This document shows positions 14,058 through 26,211 of a stretch of 34,679 nt of DNA, piece by piece. Where the stretch lies: NCBI GenBank assembly GCA_015063585.1, contig SVTW01000001.1:1-34679 (forward strand), read 5' to 3'. Under the pieces are notes generated by a model that did not search any database, had not been told where the DNA came from, and worked only from the letters and a program-made list of their open reading frames with translations. Numbering within the stretch: the first letter of the stretch is position 1; the number at the start of each line of letters is the position of its first letter. The translations under genes were made by a program, and so were the position numbers. This DNA comes from Oscillospiraceae bacterium. Lineage in GTDB: Bacteria > Bacillota > Clostridia > Oscillospirales > CAG-272.

Positions 14058-14795
14058 TTACTCTGCGTCCTCAGCGGTTTCTGCAACCTCAGCCTCTGCT
14101 TCAGCAGTTGCTTCACCCTGCTTACCCTCGATTACAGCATCAGCCAAAGCCGAGGAGATCAGCTTAATTGCGCGGATTGCGTCATCGTTACCGGGAATGA
14201 TATAATCTGCATCATCGGGATCGCAGTTGGTGTCCACGATCGCAATAACCGGAATACCCAGTTTCTTTGCTTCAAGAACAGCGTTTCTTTCCTTCTTGGG
14301 GTCAACGATAAAGATCGCGTCGGGAAGCTTTTCCATGGTCTTAATACCGCCGTAGCTCTTCTCAAGATCGAAGATCTCCTTCTGCATCGAAGCAACTTCC
14401 TTCTTGGGAAGCAGATCAAAGGTTCCGTCCTCCTGCATCTTGTACAGGTCGTTCAGACGGTTGATCGAACGCTTGATGGTCTTGAAGTTGGTCATCATAC
14501 CGCCGGGCCAACGAACATTTACATAGTACATGCCGCAACGGGTAGCCTCTTCCTTGATTGCCTCTGCGGCCTGCTTCTTGGTACCAACGAACAGAACAGT
14601 ACCGTTGTTCTCGGAAAGCTCACGAACAAAGTTGTAAGCCTCGTCGAACTTCTTCACCGTTTTCTGAAGGTCAATGATATAAATACCATTTCTCTCGGTG
14701 AAAATGTACTCCTGCATTTTCGGGTTCCATCTTCTGGTGTGGTGTCCGAAATGAACACCTGCTTCAAGCAGCTGCTTGATAGAAATAACAGACAT
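14058..14795 (-). CDS. rpsB: Small ribosomal subunit protein uS2
   Basis: Ribosomal protein S2 of the 30S subunit head, 245 aa. The family start [18 protein letters not shown] is clear, followed by [21 protein letters not shown], the [15 protein letters not shown] segment, and [21 protein letters not shown] near the C-terminus, with an acidic Ala/Glu-rich tail. The reading frame is open upstream to 15149, but the ATG at 14795 has AAGGAGG at the right distance and matches the family start. Its own promoter lies at 14947-14975 with a long leader between, where S2 autoregulation is plausible. Confidence 0.98.
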
Positions 14796-14940
14796 TTTTA
14801 TGTCCTCCTTCGGTTTTTTCCACCATCGCAACGCATTGCCAAAAACCGCATTTCGCGGCACCGATGCAACGTTCGTCCGATGTGTGAATTTTTTTATTTT
14901 GCGCCAATGCCCGCTTTTCAAGGGGATCGCGACGCAATTA
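14796..14940 (-). promoter_or_regulatory. rpsB 5' leader, candidate autoregulatory structure
   Basis: About 145 nt lie between the predicted transcription start and rpsB. In the minus-strand RNA I see a nested stem: CAUCG near the middle pairs with CGAUG close to the ribosome binding site, enclosing a CCGC/GCGG hairpin. Bacterial rpsB leaders are known to carry S2-responsive structures. I cannot fold the RNA or match it to a known family here. Confidence 0.5.
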
Positions 14941-15009: not shown

Positions 15010-15801
15010 TTATCTTCGCGATTCCGAATGATGCCTGTATTCGGACGGCGTGCATCCCATAACCGACAAAAAAACATCATTAAAGCTACGAATGCTTTGG
15101 AATCCGCACATCTGCGATATCTCTGTAATTCCGCATGCTTCGGTTGCAAGCATTTGAGCGGCGTGCTCTACGCGGCATTCATTGAGAACCTGACGGAATT
15201 TAATTGAATATTTTTGATTGAGCAAGCGAGAAAGATAATGGTATTCATATCCAAAATGCTGTGCCACGTTCTGCAAGGAAAGATCTTCTGAAAAATGTGT
15301 TTCTATATAATCGAGAACGCGGCAGATCAAATCATCGTTTTTGTTTTTTCGCGGCTCTAATTGTACCTGCTTTACATACTGATCGCACAGCGCGTAAAGG
15401 CACGCGCGTTTCATTAAAAGCGAAGGCTCACCGATCATTAAATTTTCTTTCACAAGTGCCTCAACCTCCTCACCTGGATGAAAGATCATCGTATCCCCTT
15501 GGAGGTCCTTGATAAAAGAGGCAAATTCGGGTACAAAATCCTCGGAAAAAACCGCTACCCACGCCATGCAATCCTCTTCAATCCGAAAAGAGTGGATTTG
15601 ATTGGAAAGAATCATTGCCCATTCCCCTTTTTGGAGGATTACATCGTTTTCCTTCATGGTAAGAGACATCGTTCCGTGCAATACACAGATCAGCTCCAAA
15701 TTCTTATGAAAATGTGGCTTCCAAATCCGATTGGTGTAAGTATAGGCATTATAATTGTTGTTTCCTCTTGAATTATCACTCTGATGATCGGCTTTTGACA
15801 T
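15010..15801 (-). CDS. AraC-family transcriptional regulator
   Basis: A 263-aa regulator with an N-terminal cupin-like sensor domain (about residues 25-110: [14 protein letters not shown], then [18 protein letters not shown]) and a C-terminal double helix-turn-helix of the HTH_18 type (about 160-258), ending in the usual PSEYRHH. The frame is open to 15867, but the ATG at 15801 has GGGAGA upstream and puts the promoter at 15839-15867 in the right place; the longer start would begin inside the promoter. It is divergent from the glycyl radical gene pair and shares the 121-nt intergenic region. It is therefore the likely regulator of that pair, responding to a small molecule, perhaps the enzyme's substrate (inference). 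Confidence 0.9.
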
Positions 15802-15838
15802 ATCGGTCTCCCAATAAAAAAGATAAATTTCTGCTACT

Positions 15839-15867
15839 ATTATACAACAAAATACTTTCCAAATCAA
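15839..15867 (-). promoter_or_regulatory. Promoter of the araC-family gene
   Basis: On the minus strand, -35 TTGATT (15862-15867), a 17-nt spacer, and -10 TATAAT (15839-15844). Its -35 box directly abuts the -35 box of the opposing promoter. Confidence 0.7.
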
Positions 15868-15874
15868 GTATTTT
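15849..15874. promoter_or_regulatory. Perfect inverted repeat, candidate operator
   Basis: Perfect 9-bp arms (15849-15857 AAAATACTT and 15866-15874 AAGTATTTT) with an 8-nt centre. The repeat covers both divergent -35 boxes, so a bound regulator could control both promoters together. The AraC-family protein is the obvious candidate, although that family often binds direct repeats. Confidence 0.55.
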
Positions 15875-15884
15875 TTAATATAAT
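15856..15884 (+). promoter_or_regulatory. Promoter of the activase-glycyl radical enzyme operon
   Basis: -35 TTTCCA (15856-15861), a 17-nt spacer, and -10 TATAAT (15879-15884). The -35 is weak (4 of 6 consensus bases), which fits a promoter that needs an activator. Confidence 0.65.
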
Positions 15885-15922
15885 TAAATCAGAAAATCAA
15901 ATTCGGATCGGAGGTGCCCTGA

Positions 15923-16774
15923 ATGAGCCGCGGAATGGTGTTTTCCATAGAAGAATTTTCGCTTTATGACGGCCCCGGAATTCGTACAACCGTATTTTTG
16001 AAGGGCTGTCCGATGCGTTGCGTCTGGTGTCACAGCCCGGAGGGGCAAGACGATGCCCCCGAATGGATTCGATCTCCCAACGGTTGTCTGAATTGCCAAG
16101 CCTGCCTGAAAGCGGGAGAAGCCGACACCGGAGTTCCCTGCTTGACGGCGGCAAGCGCGCTCGTCTGCCCGCGCCATTTGATACGACGGGTGGGAGAAGA
16201 ATATACACCCGACAGTCTTGTTGAATTACTTCTTAAAAACCGTAATTTCTTGGCTTCTTCCGGTGGAGGTGTCACCTTTTCCGGTGGGGAACCCTGCTCT
16301 CAAGCGGATTTTTTGATGGATTGTCTGACTCGGCTGCGCGGAAAAATGAACCGCGCGATTCAAACCTGCGGCTTTTGTGAGCCCGATGTTTTCCGTTCAA
16401 TTCTCGGCGAATGTGATTATGTGTTATACGATCTGAAGCTCATAGATAAAAAGAAGCACATTGCCTTTTGCGGGTGCGATAATAGCGTTATTCTTGAAAA
16501 TTATCGGCAATTAGCAGCCTCCGGCTTGGATTTTATAACGAGAATCCCGTTGATTCCACAGGTGAACGATACCGAAGAAAATATTTCCGCAACAGCAGAG
16601 CGAATGGTTCAAAACGCGGTAAAACGAGTGGAATTACTCCCCTATCACCGTCTTGCCGGAAGCAAGTATGCTATGATGGGGCGCACGTATTCTCCACCGT
16701 TTGATGAAAAAAAAGACCCTTGCTTACATATGGAAATTTGGAAAAAATATGGAATAGAGGTGAAGGTTTTATGA
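15923..16774 (+). CDS. Glycyl-radical enzyme activating enzyme (radical SAM)
   Basis: Radical SAM protein of 283 aa that would install the glycyl radical on the enzyme encoded next to it. The N-terminal SIEEFSLYDGPGIRTTVFLKG is typical of PFL-activase-like proteins (residues 8-28). The SAM cluster motif CxxxCxxC is C29, C33 and C36, and GGEP is at 121-124. Between them lie extra cysteines C55, C58, C61, C73 and C82. Many non-PFL activases carry a ferredoxin-like insert for two extra [4Fe-4S] clusters; here there are residues for about one. GGAGG stands eight bases before the ATG. The stop overlaps the downstream ATG (ATGA), so the two are translationally coupled. Substrate and partner are inferred from that coupling. 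Confidence 0.92.
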   Translation: MSRGMVFSIEEFSLYDGPGIRTTVFLKGCPMRCVWCHSPEGQDDAPEWIRSPNGCLNCQACLKAGEADTGVPCLTAASALVCPRHLIRRVGEEYTPDSLVELLLKNRNFLASSGGGVTFSGGEPCSQADFLMDCLTRLRGKMNRAIQTCGFCEPDVFRSILGECDYVLYDLKLIDKKKHIAFCGCDNSVILENYRQLAASGLDFITRIPLIPQVNDTEENISATAERMVQNAVKRVELLPYHRLAGSKYAMMGRTYSPPFDEKKDPCLHMEIWKKYGIEVKVL

Positions 16775-18798
16775 CAGAGCGAGTAAAAGAATATCTTTCC
16801 ATTCTTAAGAAGAAAGAATATCGAAAAAACAGAATGAAAAGCGAGCTTGATATTTCACCGCTGGTAGAGCATTTCAGCATTTCCGATCCGCGCCTCAATT
16901 TGGTTCGTTTTGAACAGTTGATCACCCGTGAGATCCCTGTTTTGCACCCAAACGACATGTTCGGCTTTCACCGCCACCAAGCCAATCTGCCCTTTTATAC
17001 TCTGCACGACGGATCGGCCAGCAGCCTCGGAGGACACGGCAATATAACACCGAATTATGCGCGCTTGATCGGGCGCGGACTTGACGCGACCGAACAGGAA
17101 ATTGTGGAATACCGTAAAAAAACAGACGATCCGCAAAAGCATATTTTCTATGACTCCATTCTGGCACATTTTACGCTCATGCGTGATCTAATCGAAAAAT
17201 ACCGTGTTGCCGCAAAAGAAAGAAAGTGTGAACGCCTCGCAAAGGCATTGGAGCGGATCCCCTTCCTGCCCGCAACCGATTTTTATGAAGCGTGTCTTTT
17301 TTTACATATTCTGATCTTCTTTTTGCGCTGTTCTCCACACGCACATCTGACGCTCGGTCGATTTGATCAATATATGTATCCCTATTATCAAAAGGACATT
17401 GAAAAAGGCGTTTCTCAAGAATCCTTGCTTGAAACGCTGGAATGCTTTTTTATCACACTGAATCTCGACAGTGACCTCTATTCAGGCGTTCAACAGGGAG
17501 ATAACGGACAAAGCATGGTGCTCGGTGGCTTTGACCGAAATGGGGACAGCATGTTCAATGAGCTGTCACAGCTCTGCATGGATGCCTCTATGGAGCTCTC
17601 TCTGATTGATCCGAAAATCAATTTAAGATGCGGAAAAAATACACCGCAAGAACTTTTCGAGCTTGGAACAAAAATGACCAAGCTTGGAATGGGCTTTCCG
17701 CAATACTGCAACGATGATGTAGTTGTACCTGCCCTGGTATCTCTTGGATACGATTATGAGGACGCGCTCGATTATACCGTTGCCGCTTGCTGGGAATTTA
17801 TTGTGCCCAACTGTGCGTTTGACGTTCCCAATATTGCCACCTTTAATTTTCCGCTCGTGGTTAACCGTGCGATCCATCGAGGACTGCTTCAATCCGCTAC
17901 GTTTGACGCTCTGATGCGTTACGTTCACGAGGAGATTGAAGCTGAGTGCGAAAAAATCGCACAGGAAACAACATATAAGAAAAGATGCACGCCGCTTCTC
18001 GCGGTCTTGGTGGATGGATGCTTGGAAAAAGGCATGGATATCATGCAATATGCCCCAAAATACAACAATTACGGTTGTCACGGTGCAGGCATTTCAAACG
18101 CCGCTGATGCGCTGGCAGCAATCAAGGATCTGATCTTCAACCAACAAAGCGTTTCCAAAGAAACACTTCTTGAGGCACTCCATGCGAATTTTGAAGGCTA
18201 TACCGAACTGCGGAACACCTTGCTTGACTGCCCGAAAATGGGACAGGACAACGATTTTGTTGATGCGATCGCATCTGAACTGCTTGACGTCTTTTCAAAG
18301 TCTTTAAGCGGAAGAAAAAATGCACACGGCGGATTTTGGCGCGTGGGAACGGGCAGCGCAATGGAATACATTCTCAGTGCGAAAAAATGCCCCGCAACCG
18401 CGGACGGGCGTCTTGCCTTTACCCCGTACGGTTGTAGTTTTTCGCCGTCTATAATCTCTCGTCCAAGAGGCCCGATCTCGGTCATTCATTCTTTTACAAA
18501 GTATGATATGAAAAAAGCAATCAACGGAGGTCCTTTAACATTAGAGCTTCACGACTCTGTTTTTCGCAATGAGGACGGAGAGCGAAAGGTGGCTCAGCTT
18601 GTGCGGTACTTCATTGATCGCGGCGGTCATCAGCTCCAGTTGAACGCAGTGAACCGTGATCTTCTCCTGAACGCGCAAAAGCATCCTGAGGACTACCCCA
18701 ATCTGATCGTTCGCGTTTGGGGTTGGAGCGGATACTTCTGCGAGCTTGATCCCGAATATCAAAATCACATTATCGCGCGAACAGAATTTCAAGTATAG
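16771..18798 (+). CDS. Compact glycyl radical enzyme of unknown substrate (PFL-like family)
   Basis: A 675-aa glycyl radical enzyme. The radical site is visible as RVWGWSGYF at 648-656, giving G651 as the radical glycine. The thiyl cysteine is C340 within CWE (340-342). That C-x-E arrangement is shared by glycerol, propanediol and hydroxyproline dehydratases and choline lyase, not by pyruvate formate-lyase, which has Cys-Cys. Other family marks are GGHGNITPNYARLIGRGL (87-104) and LGRFDQYMYPYY (195-206). Characterised members run about 760-850 aa, so this one lacks roughly 100 residues, mainly toward the N-terminus. The ATG at 16771 has AGGTGAAGG upstream; an earlier in-frame ATG at 16720 lies inside the activase. 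The reaction is probably dehydration or C-X lyase chemistry; the substrate is unknown. Automated annotation as formate acetyltransferase would be misleading. Confidence 0.9.
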   Translation: MTERVKEYLSILKKKEYRKNRMKSELDISPLVEHFSISDPRLNLVRFEQLITREIPVLHPNDMFGFHRHQANLPFYTLHDGSASSLGGHGNITPNYARLIGRGLDATEQEIVEYRKKTDDPQKHIFYDSILAHFTLMRDLIEKYRVAAKERKCERLAKALERIPFLPATDFYEACLFLHILIFFLRCSPHAHLTLGRFDQYMYPYYQKDIEKGVSQESLLETLECFFITLNLDSDLYSGVQQGDNGQSMVLGGFDRNGDSMFNELSQLCMDASMELSLIDPKINLRCGKNTPQELFELGTKMTKLGMGFPQYCNDDVVVPALVSLGYDYEDALDYTVAACWEFIVPNCAFDVPNIATFNFPLVVNRAIHRGLLQSATFDALMRYVHEEIEAECEKIAQETTYKKRCTPLLAVLVDGCLEKGMDIMQYAPKYNNYGCHGAGISNAADALAAIKDLIFNQQSVSKETLLEALHANFEGYTELRNTLLDCPKMGQDNDFVDAIASELLDVFSKSLSGRKNAHGGFWRVGTGSAMEYILSAKKCPATADGRLAFTPYGCSFSPSIISRPRGPISVIHSFTKYDMKKAINGGPLTLELHDSVFRNEDGERKVAQLVRYFIDRGGHQLQLNAVNRDLLLNAQKHPEDYPNLIVRVWGWSGYFCELDPEYQNHIIARTEFQV

Positions 18799-18804
18799 AT
18801 CGCG

Positions 18805-18848
18805 AAACAAGAAGGAAGCAGTTGACAATAACCGCTTCCTTCTTGTTT
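18805..18848. terminator. Bidirectional terminator between the glycyl radical enzyme gene and ylmC
   Basis: Perfect 15-bp stem, arms 18805-18819 and 18834-18848, with a 14-nt loop and T/A runs at the base. It lies between two convergent genes and touches the ylmC stop codon. It probably ends both transcripts. The T run outside the stem is short on both sides. Confidence 0.75.
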
Positions 18849-19137
18849 ATCTGAATTTTTTGGTTTTTCTACGTGAGCAGGTGCAGCAAGAGATATCCTG
18901 TGACGTCAGTTTTACCAGAATCGTATCTTCTCCGATACATTCGATCTTATTCCACGGAATGATCAGGTCGTCTTCCCTGCCAAATCCGAAAAAGCCACAG
19001 CTTCCCGTTATAACGAGAGCAAGAATGCGCGCGTCCTCGCAATCGAATTCAAAATCGCACGCATATCCAAGCCTTGCTCCGTCGCACAAATTTATAATTT
19101 CCAGCTGACGCAAATCAACCGTACTGAAGCGTTTCAC
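18847..19137 (-). CDS. YlmC/YmxH family sporulation protein (PRC-barrel)
   Basis: A 96-aa single PRC-barrel protein of the YlmC/YmxH group, which occurs widely in spore-forming Firmicutes. The family pattern LRQLEIINLCDGARLGYACDFEFD lies at about residues 10-33, followed by the barrel with IIPWNKIECIGEDTILV. The start is GTG at 19137, supported by GGGAG nine bases upstream. Two adjacent cysteine pairs near the C-terminus (CCTC) resemble those of homologues. It is last in the long minus-strand block and converges on the glycyl radical enzyme gene. The biochemical role of the family is not established; its presence hints at a sporulating ancestry. Confidence 0.88.
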   Translation of the reverse strand: MKRFSTVDLRQLEIINLCDGARLGYACDFEFDCEDARILALVITGSCGFFGFGREDDLIIPWNKIECIGEDTILVKLTSQDISCCTCSRRKTKKFR

Positions 19138-24430: not shown

Positions 24431-25252
24431 TCACATCACGTACCCAATCGCAATGCGATTGAGGAAGATAAGTGCAACCCCAAGGAGCAACACGCCTCCG
24501 ATCGCCACGAAATCGCTCGCACGGTAACGCAAAACCTTCAGCCGTGTGCGTCCTTCTCCGCCGTGATAGCAACGGCATTCCATTGCCGATGCCAATTCAA
24601 ACGCACGGTTAAATGCCGAAACGAATAGCGGAATGAGGATCGGAATTACGGATTTTGCACGTTTGAGCAGACTTCCGCTTGTAAAATCCGCCCCTCTTGC
24701 CTTCTGCGCGTTCATAATTTTTTCGGTTTCTGCCGAAAAGGTAGGAATAAAACGCAAAGCGATCGTCATGATCATAGCAAAATCATGCACGGGCAATTTA
24801 AACACCTTGAGCGGTGAGAGCAAACGCTCAAGTGCGTCGGTCAAAGCAATCGGTGTTGTGGTATAAGTGAGAAAAATACTTGTTCCGACAATCAGAATGC
24901 TGATTCGGAGCACCATGAAGCAGGCATTCCAAATCCCCTCCTCATAAATTTTGATCCACCAATCGGCAGGTGTGAGCAGATGCTCTCCTTTGGTGCCAAA
25001 AAGGTTAAAGGCAGAGGTTACCGCGATCACAAACAAAATCGGACGCATGGAACGTAAAATAATGCGAATCGGAATTTTGCTCAACAGGATCAAAAGAATA
25101 GAAGAAGCAAATAGCGTCAAAAAAGAAACCAAACTCTTACACAAAAACGTGCAAACAATATAGGTAACAGCCAAAATGATCTTCGCGCGCGGATCCATGC
25201 GGTGGATCGGAGACTCTACAGGATAAAACTGTCCGAAGGAAACGCCCTTCAT
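24431..25252 (-). CDS. ecfT: ECF transporter transmembrane protein EcfT
   Basis: Membrane coupling component of an energy-coupling factor vitamin/metal transporter. The 273-aa protein has hydrophobic helices near residues 28-57, 70-88, 105-130 and at the C-terminus, and two cytoplasmic coupling helices. The first carries the expected Ala-Arg-Gly (QKARGADF). The second reads Glu-Cys-Arg-Cys-Tyr where Ala-Arg-Gly is usual. It overlaps ecfA2 by 4 nt (ATGA). With both ATPases present and no substrate-binding S component in the window, it is probably a shared, group II module serving several S components encoded elsewhere. Confidence 0.93.
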   Translation of the reverse strand: MKGVSFGQFYPVESPIHRMDPRAKIILAVTYIVCTFLCKSLVSFLTLFASSILLILLSKIPIRIILRSMRPILFVIAVTSAFNLFGTKGEHLLTPADWWIKIYEEGIWNACFMVLRISILIVGTSIFLTYTTTPIALTDALERLLSPLKVFKLPVHDFAMIMTIALRFIPTFSAETEKIMNAQKARGADFTSGSLLKRAKSVIPILIPLFVSAFNRAFELASAMECRCYHGGEGRTRLKVLRYRASDFVAIGGVLLLGVALIFLNRIAIGYVM

Positions 25253-26211
25253 TTCGCTCCGCCCCCCTTCTTTGATCGGAATAGCTCCGATACGACCTCA
25301 ACGGCACGTTCAACGGTATAGATATTTTCGGGCAGATCAAAGCCCTTCTCGCGAAGGAGACGCACAAGATGCGTGATCTGAGGGATATCCAGACCCACGT
25401 CGGAAAGCTTTTCGATCTGTGCGAAAACATCCTTACATCCGCCGCTCATCAGCACCCGCGCGTTTTCCATCACAACAACGTCATCACAATACCGCGCCAT
25501 GTCCTCCATGCTATGACTGACGATCAGGACCGTACACTGTGTTTTTCGTTGAAAAGAACGGATTCCGTCAAAAATATAGTCGCGTCCGCGCGGATCAAGC
25601 CCCGCTGCAGGCTCATCCAGAACGAGAACCTCGGGACGCATGGCAATCACGCCCGCGAGTGCCACTCTGCGTTTTTGTCCTCCCGAGAGGTCAAAAGGCG
25701 ATTTATCCCATAAATCCTCTGTAAGATCGGTAAATGCAGATGCCTCACGCACCCGCTCTCGGATCTCGTTTTCATCAAGCCCCATATTAGACGGTCCAAA
25801 AGCAATATCCTTATAAACACTTTCCTCAAAGAGCTGGTATTCCGGATATTGCATTACAAGACCGACCCGAAAGCAAAGTGCTCGACGGCGGCGCAAGATC
25901 TCATTTCGAATTGCCTTTTTTGCGGCACTTTTCGATAAATTCGCATATTCGGGAAGCTTAATCCACTCATCTGTCACATCCTGTGCCGTTGCATGAATGT
26001 CGTATCCGTCCAAGTAGATTTTGCCCGATGTGGGAACGGTCAAACCGTTCAGCATTTGCATCATCGTGGATTTTCCGGACCCCGTATGACCAATGATACC
26101 GGTAATACAACCGGCGCGAATGCCGAGTGTGATGTCCTTGAGTGCCACGCGTTCGAACGGTGTTCCCGGATTATATACGTAATTGACGTGATCAAGATAA
26201 ATTTTATCCAT
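25249..26211 (-). CDS. ecfA2: ECF transporter ATP-binding protein EcfA2
   Basis: ATPase subunit of the energy-coupling factor complex. Walker A GHTGSGKST starts at residue 41, the Q-loop is in LVMQYPEYQLF, the signature is LSGGQKRR, Walker B is VLVLDEPAAGLD, and the switch histidine follows in IVSHSMEDM. The 320-aa length exceeds the usual 285-290: a charged insert of about 25 residues lies between the Walker A region and the Q-loop (roughly residues 72-110). The ribosome binding site is weak. It lies 38 nt after ecfA1 and overlaps ecfT. It pairs with EcfA1 as a heterodimer below EcfT. Confidence 0.93.
   Translation of the reverse strand: MDKIYLDHVNYVYNPGTPFERVALKDITLGIRAGCITGIIGHTGSGKSTMMQMLNGLTVPTSGKIYLDGYDIHATAQDVTDEWIKLPEYANLSKSAAKKAIRNEILRRRRALCFRVGLVMQYPEYQLFEESVYKDIAFGPSNMGLDENEIRERVREASAFTDLTEDLWDKSPFDLSGGQKRRVALAGVIAMRPEVLVLDEPAAGLDPRGRDYIFDGIRSFQRKTQCTVLIVSHSMEDMARYCDDVVVMENARVLMSGGCKDVFAQIEKLSDVGLDIPQITHLVRLLREKGFDLPENIYTVERAVEVVSELFRSKKGGGAK

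Follow-up and report, generated by a model that had tools for sequence, protein, structure and literature searches.

A multi-phylum clade of glycyl radical enzymes with an altered radical loop and a putative sugar-derived substrate

CutC, HypD, IslA, and YbiW/PflD are recent assignments among the glycyl radical enzymes (GREs), and each of them revealed an anaerobic pathway that had not been drawn before. Here, we analyzed a further, oxygen-sensitive GRE, encoded at positions 16771 to 18798 (forward strand) of a stretch of 34,679 nucleotides (the window) from an Oscillospiraceae bacterium (contig SVTW01000001.1 of GenBank assembly GCA_015063585.1). It belongs to a coherent multi-phylum clade of gut-bacterial enzymes, for which we found no characterized member, with changes in the radical loop and in the putative pocket, and the gene neighborhoods of its relatives narrow the substrate to carbohydrates. 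On balance, although with considerable reservation, we read the locus as a self-contained anaerobic catabolic cassette whose GRE would be a radical eliminase, a dehydratase acting on an unphosphorylated sugar or on a polyol derived from a sugar. Since cultured carriers exist, the question is directly testable.

The enzyme, its clade, and its putative pocket

Translation from the ATG at 16771 to the stop codon ending at 18798 gives a protein of 675 amino acids and, together with the alignments, confirmed the catalytic positions of the original prediction, i.e., the thiyl Cys340 (codon 17788 to 17790), Glu342 (17794 to 17796), and the radical Gly651 (18721 to 18723). The protein matched the Pfam families PFL-like (E value, 1.7e-90; 304.9 bits versus a gathering score of 24.3) and Gly_radical (5.3e-20; 72.4 versus 22.2 bits). 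Its place in the GRE superfamily follows from the alignment of Cys340 and Gly651 with those of solved GREs and from the adjoining activase, which scored above its subfamily cutoff. The small size that had been singled out earlier was only partly borne out. The chain is shorter than all GRE chains among the matches listed (687 to 1,150 amino acids), except for the 127-residue GrcA, but frames of ca. 660 to 735 amino acids are common in this order among GREs that are more distantly related, so that compactness is not distinctive and was rejected as a novel feature.

None of the 12 NCBIfam GRE-type models matched by the protein was reached at its cutoff. The eight full-length GRE equivalogs were missed by at least 734 bits (CutC, 246.5 versus 1,050; HypD, 273.7 versus 1,100; HpsG, 265.9 versus 1,000; HpfG, 238.5 versus 1,000), the three GrcA models by at least 96 bits, and the formate C-acetyltransferase/glycerol dehydratase (PFL2) subfamily, TIGR01774, by 330 bits (347.9 versus 678.2). 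On these cutoffs, membership in any named GRE equivalog was rejected.

A genome scan that started from an initial alignment of 24 relatives returned at least 592 stretches and at least 544 relatives, of which 80 loci were kept; they had been fetched with two patterns, one of them R[IV]WGWS[AG]Y. The GRE gene could be called in 78 of the 80, all of which carried both AACWE and R[VI]WGWS[GA]Y, of which only AACWE is independent because the radical-loop motif had been a search pattern. The tree set comprised 94 rows: 76 from the 80 loci (L060 and L065 were uncalled, and L077 and L107 were too short), 17 from 20 related-genome stretches found by a protein search and one alignment search (none was called in L130 and L138, and L139 was partial), and the window itself. 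AACWE is present in all 94 rows by construction, since the row filter demanded it; the rows dropped were dropped for length. In a quick tree, where two of the outgroups formed long branches, the clade was split from five outgroup GREs with a Shimodaira-Hasegawa-like approximate likelihood ratio test (SH-aLRT) value of 100. It divides into the subclade of the window (46 rows) and the other rows (48).

Within the genus of the window, 24 of 35 genomes had a match at an E value of ≤1e-100, and the best hit in every one of these was at 3.8e-171 or lower. When the phylum was sampled evenly, with at most two candidates scored per genome, 2 of 398 genomes exceeded 1,000 bits (the window's own and G434), and the five other matching genomes reached at most 446.5 bits; denser sampling around G434 returned G434 itself as the sole carrier, both among 13 and among 22 genomes. 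Clade records were labeled Bacillota, Bacteroidota, Planctomycetota, Lentisphaerota, and Verrucomicrobiota. The last label may be a binning error, as the contig that carries it differs hardly at all from one labeled Lentisphaerae. Cultured carriers are Ructibacterium gallinarum, Diplocloster agilis, Oligosphaera ethanolica, and Hungatella hathewayi. No such GRE family was named in the titles and abstract openings surveyed, a set that mostly leaves out subscription papers, or in passages of PMC11574389, PMC12441222, and PMC12507026.

The profile alignment used to compare the putative pocket included five sequences from the PDB, those of two diol dehydratases, one CutC, and two PflD chains. At the sites that are His164 and Asp447 in glycerol dehydratase, the four non-CutC sequences have His and Asp, CutC has Asp and Ser, and the window GRE has Asn91 and Asn354, as do all 94 rows. 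His164 and Asp447 are substrate contacts in glycerol dehydratase, and the corresponding CutC positions contact the substrate as well. Relative to all five sequences, the window GRE also has Trp341 for Val beside the catalytic Cys, Lys282 for Ser/Asn, Asp280 for Gln or Met, Glu592 for Lys, and, flanking the radical glycine, Trp650 for Ala and Trp652 for Tyr. Asn91, Lys282, Trp341, Asn354, Arg524, Glu592, Trp650, and Trp652 were identical in 94/94 rows, Asp280 was Asp in 93, and His437 was His in 91. Besides the polar residues among the first group, Asp233, Asp235, Tyr237, Gln241, Asp244, Asn284, Arg286, Tyr312, Asn314, Asp315, Asp316, Glu342, Tyr431, Gln623, and Asn625 were invariant in the 94 rows. 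The PROSITE-like radical pattern [STIV]-x-R-[IVT]-[CSAG]-G-Y-x-[GACV], a signature and not a functional requirement, matched none of the rows, all of which read R[VI]WGWS[GA]YF. Novelty had been expected to show as a cluster of its own whose pocket residues differ from those of known families, and at the sequence level this is what emerged: the models were missed, the SH-aLRT value was 100, and the changed positions are invariant.

Gene neighborhoods and the proposed substrate

At most 3.5 kb from the GRE, an AraC homologue was recognized in 37 of the 46 window-subclade rows (divergent in 36) versus 3 of the 48 other rows, and the window subclade consists mostly of stand-alone cassettes with an AraC gene diverging from an activase-GRE pair. 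We defined operon partners as same-strand neighbors within 250 bp, excluding the activase; the counts are lower bounds because some loci end at contig ends. Partners were present at 36 of the 48 other loci and at 14 of the 46 window-subclade loci, some of the latter probably being spurious open reading frames (ORFs). The Pfam scan covered 100 of 128 partners, from 34 of the 36 non-window-subclade loci (at most four per locus, of at least 150 amino acids; L091, L105, and L106 were left out as near-copies). The commonest families were Peripla_BP_4 (7), GH43, MFS_1, Peripla_BP_1, and Peripla_BP_3 (6 each), followed by Sugar_tr, LacI, and AAA_21 (4 each) and by Melibiase, Raffinose_syn, ABC_tran, BPD_transp_2, HTH_18, and HTH_AraC (3 each); one protein can match several families, and the top 25 of 113 were tabulated. 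No phosphotransferase system (PTS) family was among these 25. As a control, we used the 108 nearest non-module neighbors at 42 of the 45 window-subclade loci other than the window (top 25 of 170 families), a set that differs from the test set by clade as well as by position. It was led by DUF4996, HTH_18, GDPD, and AraC families, with 3 each, and was more mixed than the test set. A control of far genes from the same loci was dropped, since some of its genes belonged to the same operons. Three transporter clusters (MalF-type, major facilitator superfamily [MFS] sugar porter, and RbsC-type, with a Pfam check on a single member of each) were found within 8 kb in 15 of 32 clustered other loci versus 0 of 45 window-subclade loci.

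Individual loci illustrate these partners. L084 carries GH2, GH43, and an ATP-binding cassette (ABC) sugar system, and the gene order in L111 is LacI-type regulator, activase, GRE, and RbsA-, RbsC-, and RbsB-type genes. L090 has the MFS sugar porter cluster, with GH127 and an aldose epimerase beyond a 326-bp gap; in L095, an aldose 1-epimerase lies directly upstream of the activase, followed by the GRE; and in L137, GH35 stands between GRE and activase. Near the GRE of Diplocloster agilis (L093) are a deoxyribose-phosphate aldolase, DeoC, above its cutoff (230 versus 117.3), a xylulokinase-like kinase just below its own (372.6 versus 380.25), and a beta-propeller protein that is SMP-30/SGL by Pfam (63.2 versus 26.3) and received no NCBIfam lactonase name. 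This GRE (L093:9728-12082) overlaps a xylose-isomerase-like TIM-barrel gene, and no activase was recognized within the 22 kb around it. L122 has a PfkB kinase nearest to 2-keto-3-deoxy-sugar kinases, below their cutoffs, together with an aminotransferase and a diaminopimelate dehydrogenase. Naming the sugar from the binding proteins was tried and rejected: the protein of L111 resembles ribose- and allose-type binding proteins at scores below their cutoffs, and that of L103 gave a weak match, so that no sugar can be named.

Because sugar-uptake and sugar-cutting genes are frequent among the neighbors of the relatives, we infer a sugar substrate, and free-sugar transport without a conserved kinase suggests that it is not phosphorylated. 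Going by the gene order, the AraC-type regulator would sense the substrate and switch on the activase-GRE operon. The steps that follow are modeled on characterized GREs. The activase, using S-adenosylmethionine (SAM) and a [4Fe-4S] cluster, would place a radical on Gly651, which would move to Cys340. The Cys340 thiyl would then abstract a hydrogen from a carbinol carbon of the polyhydroxylated substrate, with Glu342 acting as a base on that carbinol hydroxyl; the adjacent C-O bond would cleave, releasing water, and Cys340 would return the hydrogen to the product radical to give, most likely, a deoxy aldehyde, ketone, or lactone.

Several observations weigh against a sugar or polyol eliminase. 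No same-strand partner besides the activase was seen in 32 of the 46 window-subclade loci, and since their cassette holds no sugar gene, the substrate is an extrapolation for this subclade. The partners elsewhere are varied, no single downstream pathway recurs, and some loci do not fit, with DNA methyltransferase, peptidoglycan-binding, or translation genes; the control contains glycoside hydrolases as well (GH31, 2; GH38, GH35, and GH127, 1 each). Gene calls came from a simple ORF picker, and pocket positions were mapped by sequence alignment. Lastly, position 186, the sharpest of the three columns (17, 62, and 186) that by our test differed between the window subclade and the rest, is Arg in 45/46 window-subclade rows and Trp in 48/48 others, a candidate specificity switch that hints at a different, perhaps acidic, substrate.

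A narrower proposal, which we put forward only tentatively, is that the family removes oxygen from a free sugar in its ring form and spreads as a three-gene cassette. Here, the thiyl would take the anomeric or a ring hydrogen, and a neighboring hydroxyl would leave as water, yielding a deoxy-lactone or deoxy-keto sugar. The free-sugar transporters, LacI-type regulators, mutarotase, and the deoxyribose-phosphate aldolase and SMP-30-type protein of L093 would fit such a reaction. If true, anaerobes would begin to break down sugars with a radical step, needing neither a kinase nor an isomerase.

Among the alternatives, we consider it unlikely that the window subclade works outside carbohydrate chemistry, on an unrelated small molecule (an amino acid, amine, or sulfonate), with only the other members being sugar enzymes. 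The mostly stand-alone cassettes without sugar genes, the housekeeping locus of the window cassette, and the Arg186/Trp186 switch would all agree with this, but apart from the three differing columns, the putative pocket positions examined are nearly identical across the two halves of the clade. A ring-opening lyase of an anhydro-sugar, like YbiW/PflD but with a non-phosphorylated substrate, has a rather small chance of being correct. PflD is the best single-sequence PDB match, the structures are titled with 1,5-anhydroglucitol-6-phosphate (YbiW) and 1,5-anhydromannitol-6-phosphate (PflD), and a review gives the reactions (PMC12441222); however, both aligned PflD chains retain His and Asp where the window GRE has Asn91/Asn354, the PflD segment NG-T/S-L-L-N-V-K is replaced here by NGGPLTxE, and PTS families are missing from the 25 commonest partner families. 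A pyruvate formate-lyase or GRE decarboxylase is very improbable, since, even though these enzymes share the superfamily and GRE decarboxylases have C-x-E, the active site has no Cys-Cys pair, and the scores (TIGR01255, 68.1 bits versus 994.2; indoleacetate decarboxylase, 211.3 versus 1,100; 4-hydroxyphenylacetate decarboxylase, 185.6 versus 1,150) led us to reject a pyruvate formate-lyase identity.

The cassette in the window and its insertion site

We read the activase and GRE genes as one operon of two genes, served by a dedicated regulator. The radical-SAM GRE activase (15923 to 16774, forward strand; 283 amino acids) was assigned by NCBIfam TIGR02494 (258.5 bits; cutoff, 174.35), and its stop codon overlaps the GRE start by 4 nucleotides (ATGA). 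Its Cys 29/33/36 are kept in 84/84 aligned activases, and the auxiliary Cys set 55/58/61/82 is present in 79 to 80 of the 84. Four more columns are Cys in only 34 to 37 of the 84 and are absent from the window activase; they may represent a second auxiliary cluster. The divergent gene (15010 to 15867, reverse strand) encodes, by Pfam, an AraC-family regulator with a cupin-type sensor domain, whose true start is likely an internal ATG near 15801. The intergenic region (15802 to 15922) has promoter-like sites facing both directions (forward, 15856 to 15884; reverse, 15867 to 15839), which overlap its ends. Their number (3, versus a shuffle mean of 4.5) is not above that of shuffles, so that the promoter reading is one of placement and not of score. 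After the GRE, a terminator-like hairpin (18805 to 18848; RNA fold, -26.2 kcal/mol; z, -7.19) was matched in stability by 0 of 200 shuffles; the consensus terminator scan did not list it, and it could also serve the convergent gene.

The cassette is bordered on the left by rpsB (ribosomal protein S2; 14058 to 14810, reverse strand; Ribosomal_S2, 2.2e-102) and on the right by a small gene (18847 to 19137, reverse strand) that we call ymxH/ylmC-like. The surroundings are housekeeping, with rpsB and tsf on one side and a Clp-type ATPase on the other, and DNA polymerase III alpha, 1-deoxy-D-xylulose 5-phosphate (DXP) reductoisomerase, and RuvB farther away. The original prediction had noted that no shell protein, transporter, or aldehyde dehydrogenase lies beside the GRE, which holds for its immediate neighbors in a Pfam scan of 13 of the window genes; an ABC ATPase (25252 to 26211) lies ca. 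6.5 kb away. It had left unmentioned the adjoining activase and the divergent regulator, and the neighborhoods of the relatives point to carbohydrate.

The ymxH-like gene is present in 34 of 35 same-genus genomes. Among 30 loci at this gene, rpsB adjoins it without the cassette in 20, a GRE adjoins it in 3 (window included), and neither does in 7, as judged within the DNA stretch examined. In the window and G023, the module sits between rpsB and the ymxH-like gene, and in G018, a GRE fragment (66% identity) abuts the ymxH-like gene on a short stretch. Since most loci show the two genes side by side without a GRE, the module is an insertion relative to the usual arrangement, repeated loss being less likely. 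Flanking direct repeats were sought as an insertion scar and rejected: there were 7 two-copy families only, of 16 to 24 nucleotides and with second copies 71 to 94% alike, none of them convincing. One of the seven loci with neither gene (L158) has a weak AraC-like match (27%) at the junction.

The source genome (86.5% complete) has a second, distant GRE (L002, G000:C10:1065-2858; 696 amino acids, 30% identity) with a STCVEIT motif and an activase-like gene alongside. These two are its only Gly_radical matches, so that no pyruvate formate-lyase was seen in this genome. Many GRE-like match rows in same-genus genomes (16 in G004 and 14 in G027), which may be pieces of one gene, hint that the genus may be GRE-rich.

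Comparison with known glycyl radical enzymes

The AlphaFold2 model, built from 69 sequences (mean predicted local distance difference test [pLDDT], 94.1; predicted template modeling [pTM] score, 0.93), was placed by Foldseek with glycerol dehydratase, CutC, propanediol dehydratase, PflD, and YbiW (50 matches listed; 17 to 29% identity). The best PDB profile matches were eliminases, i.e., glycerol dehydratase (415.5 bits), PflD (396.3), and propanediol dehydratase (390). Among relatives with a solved structure, glycerol dehydratase (23% identity) and PflD (29%) are the nearest. The earlier view of a dehydratase/lyase-type enzyme, not a pyruvate formate-lyase, was upheld, C-x-E grouping the window GRE with eliminases; the motif is shared by GRE decarboxylases.

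The B12-independent glycerol dehydratase of Clostridium butyricum (1r8w; TMq, 0.87) and the GRE propanediol dehydratases (5i2a, 5i2g, and 9rco) have the fold, the Cys/Gly radical pair, and C-x-E in common with the window GRE, at Foldseek identities of 23 to 24% for 1r8w and 5i2a/5i2g and 27% for 9rco. In the alignment with 1r8w and 5i2a, the window GRE has Asn91 for His164, Asn354 for Asp447, Trp for the Val next to the catalytic Cys, Glu592 for Lys, and W-G-W instead of A-G-Y around the radical glycine, and the loop bearing Asn156 of 1r8w has no counterpart in it. CutC (choline trimethylamine-lyase) shares the fold (TMq mostly 0.87 to 0.91) and C-x-E at 21 to 22% identity but carries Asp and Ser, respectively, where the window GRE has Asn91 and Asn354. 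HypD has the GRE eliminase fold (TMq, 0.84) at 22% identity, its model cutoff being missed as given above.

The anhydrosugar-phosphate lyases PflD and YbiW (8yjo, 8id0, and 8id7; 26 to 29% identity) include the best single-sequence PDB match (PflD of Escherichia coli), and relative to the two aligned PflD chains, the window GRE shows the same pocket changes as relative to the diol dehydratases. Their substrates are sugar-derived, like the one proposed here, but phosphorylated. Given that both cleave phosphorylated anhydro-sugars, according to the review (PMC12441222), sugar chemistry in this fold is plausible.

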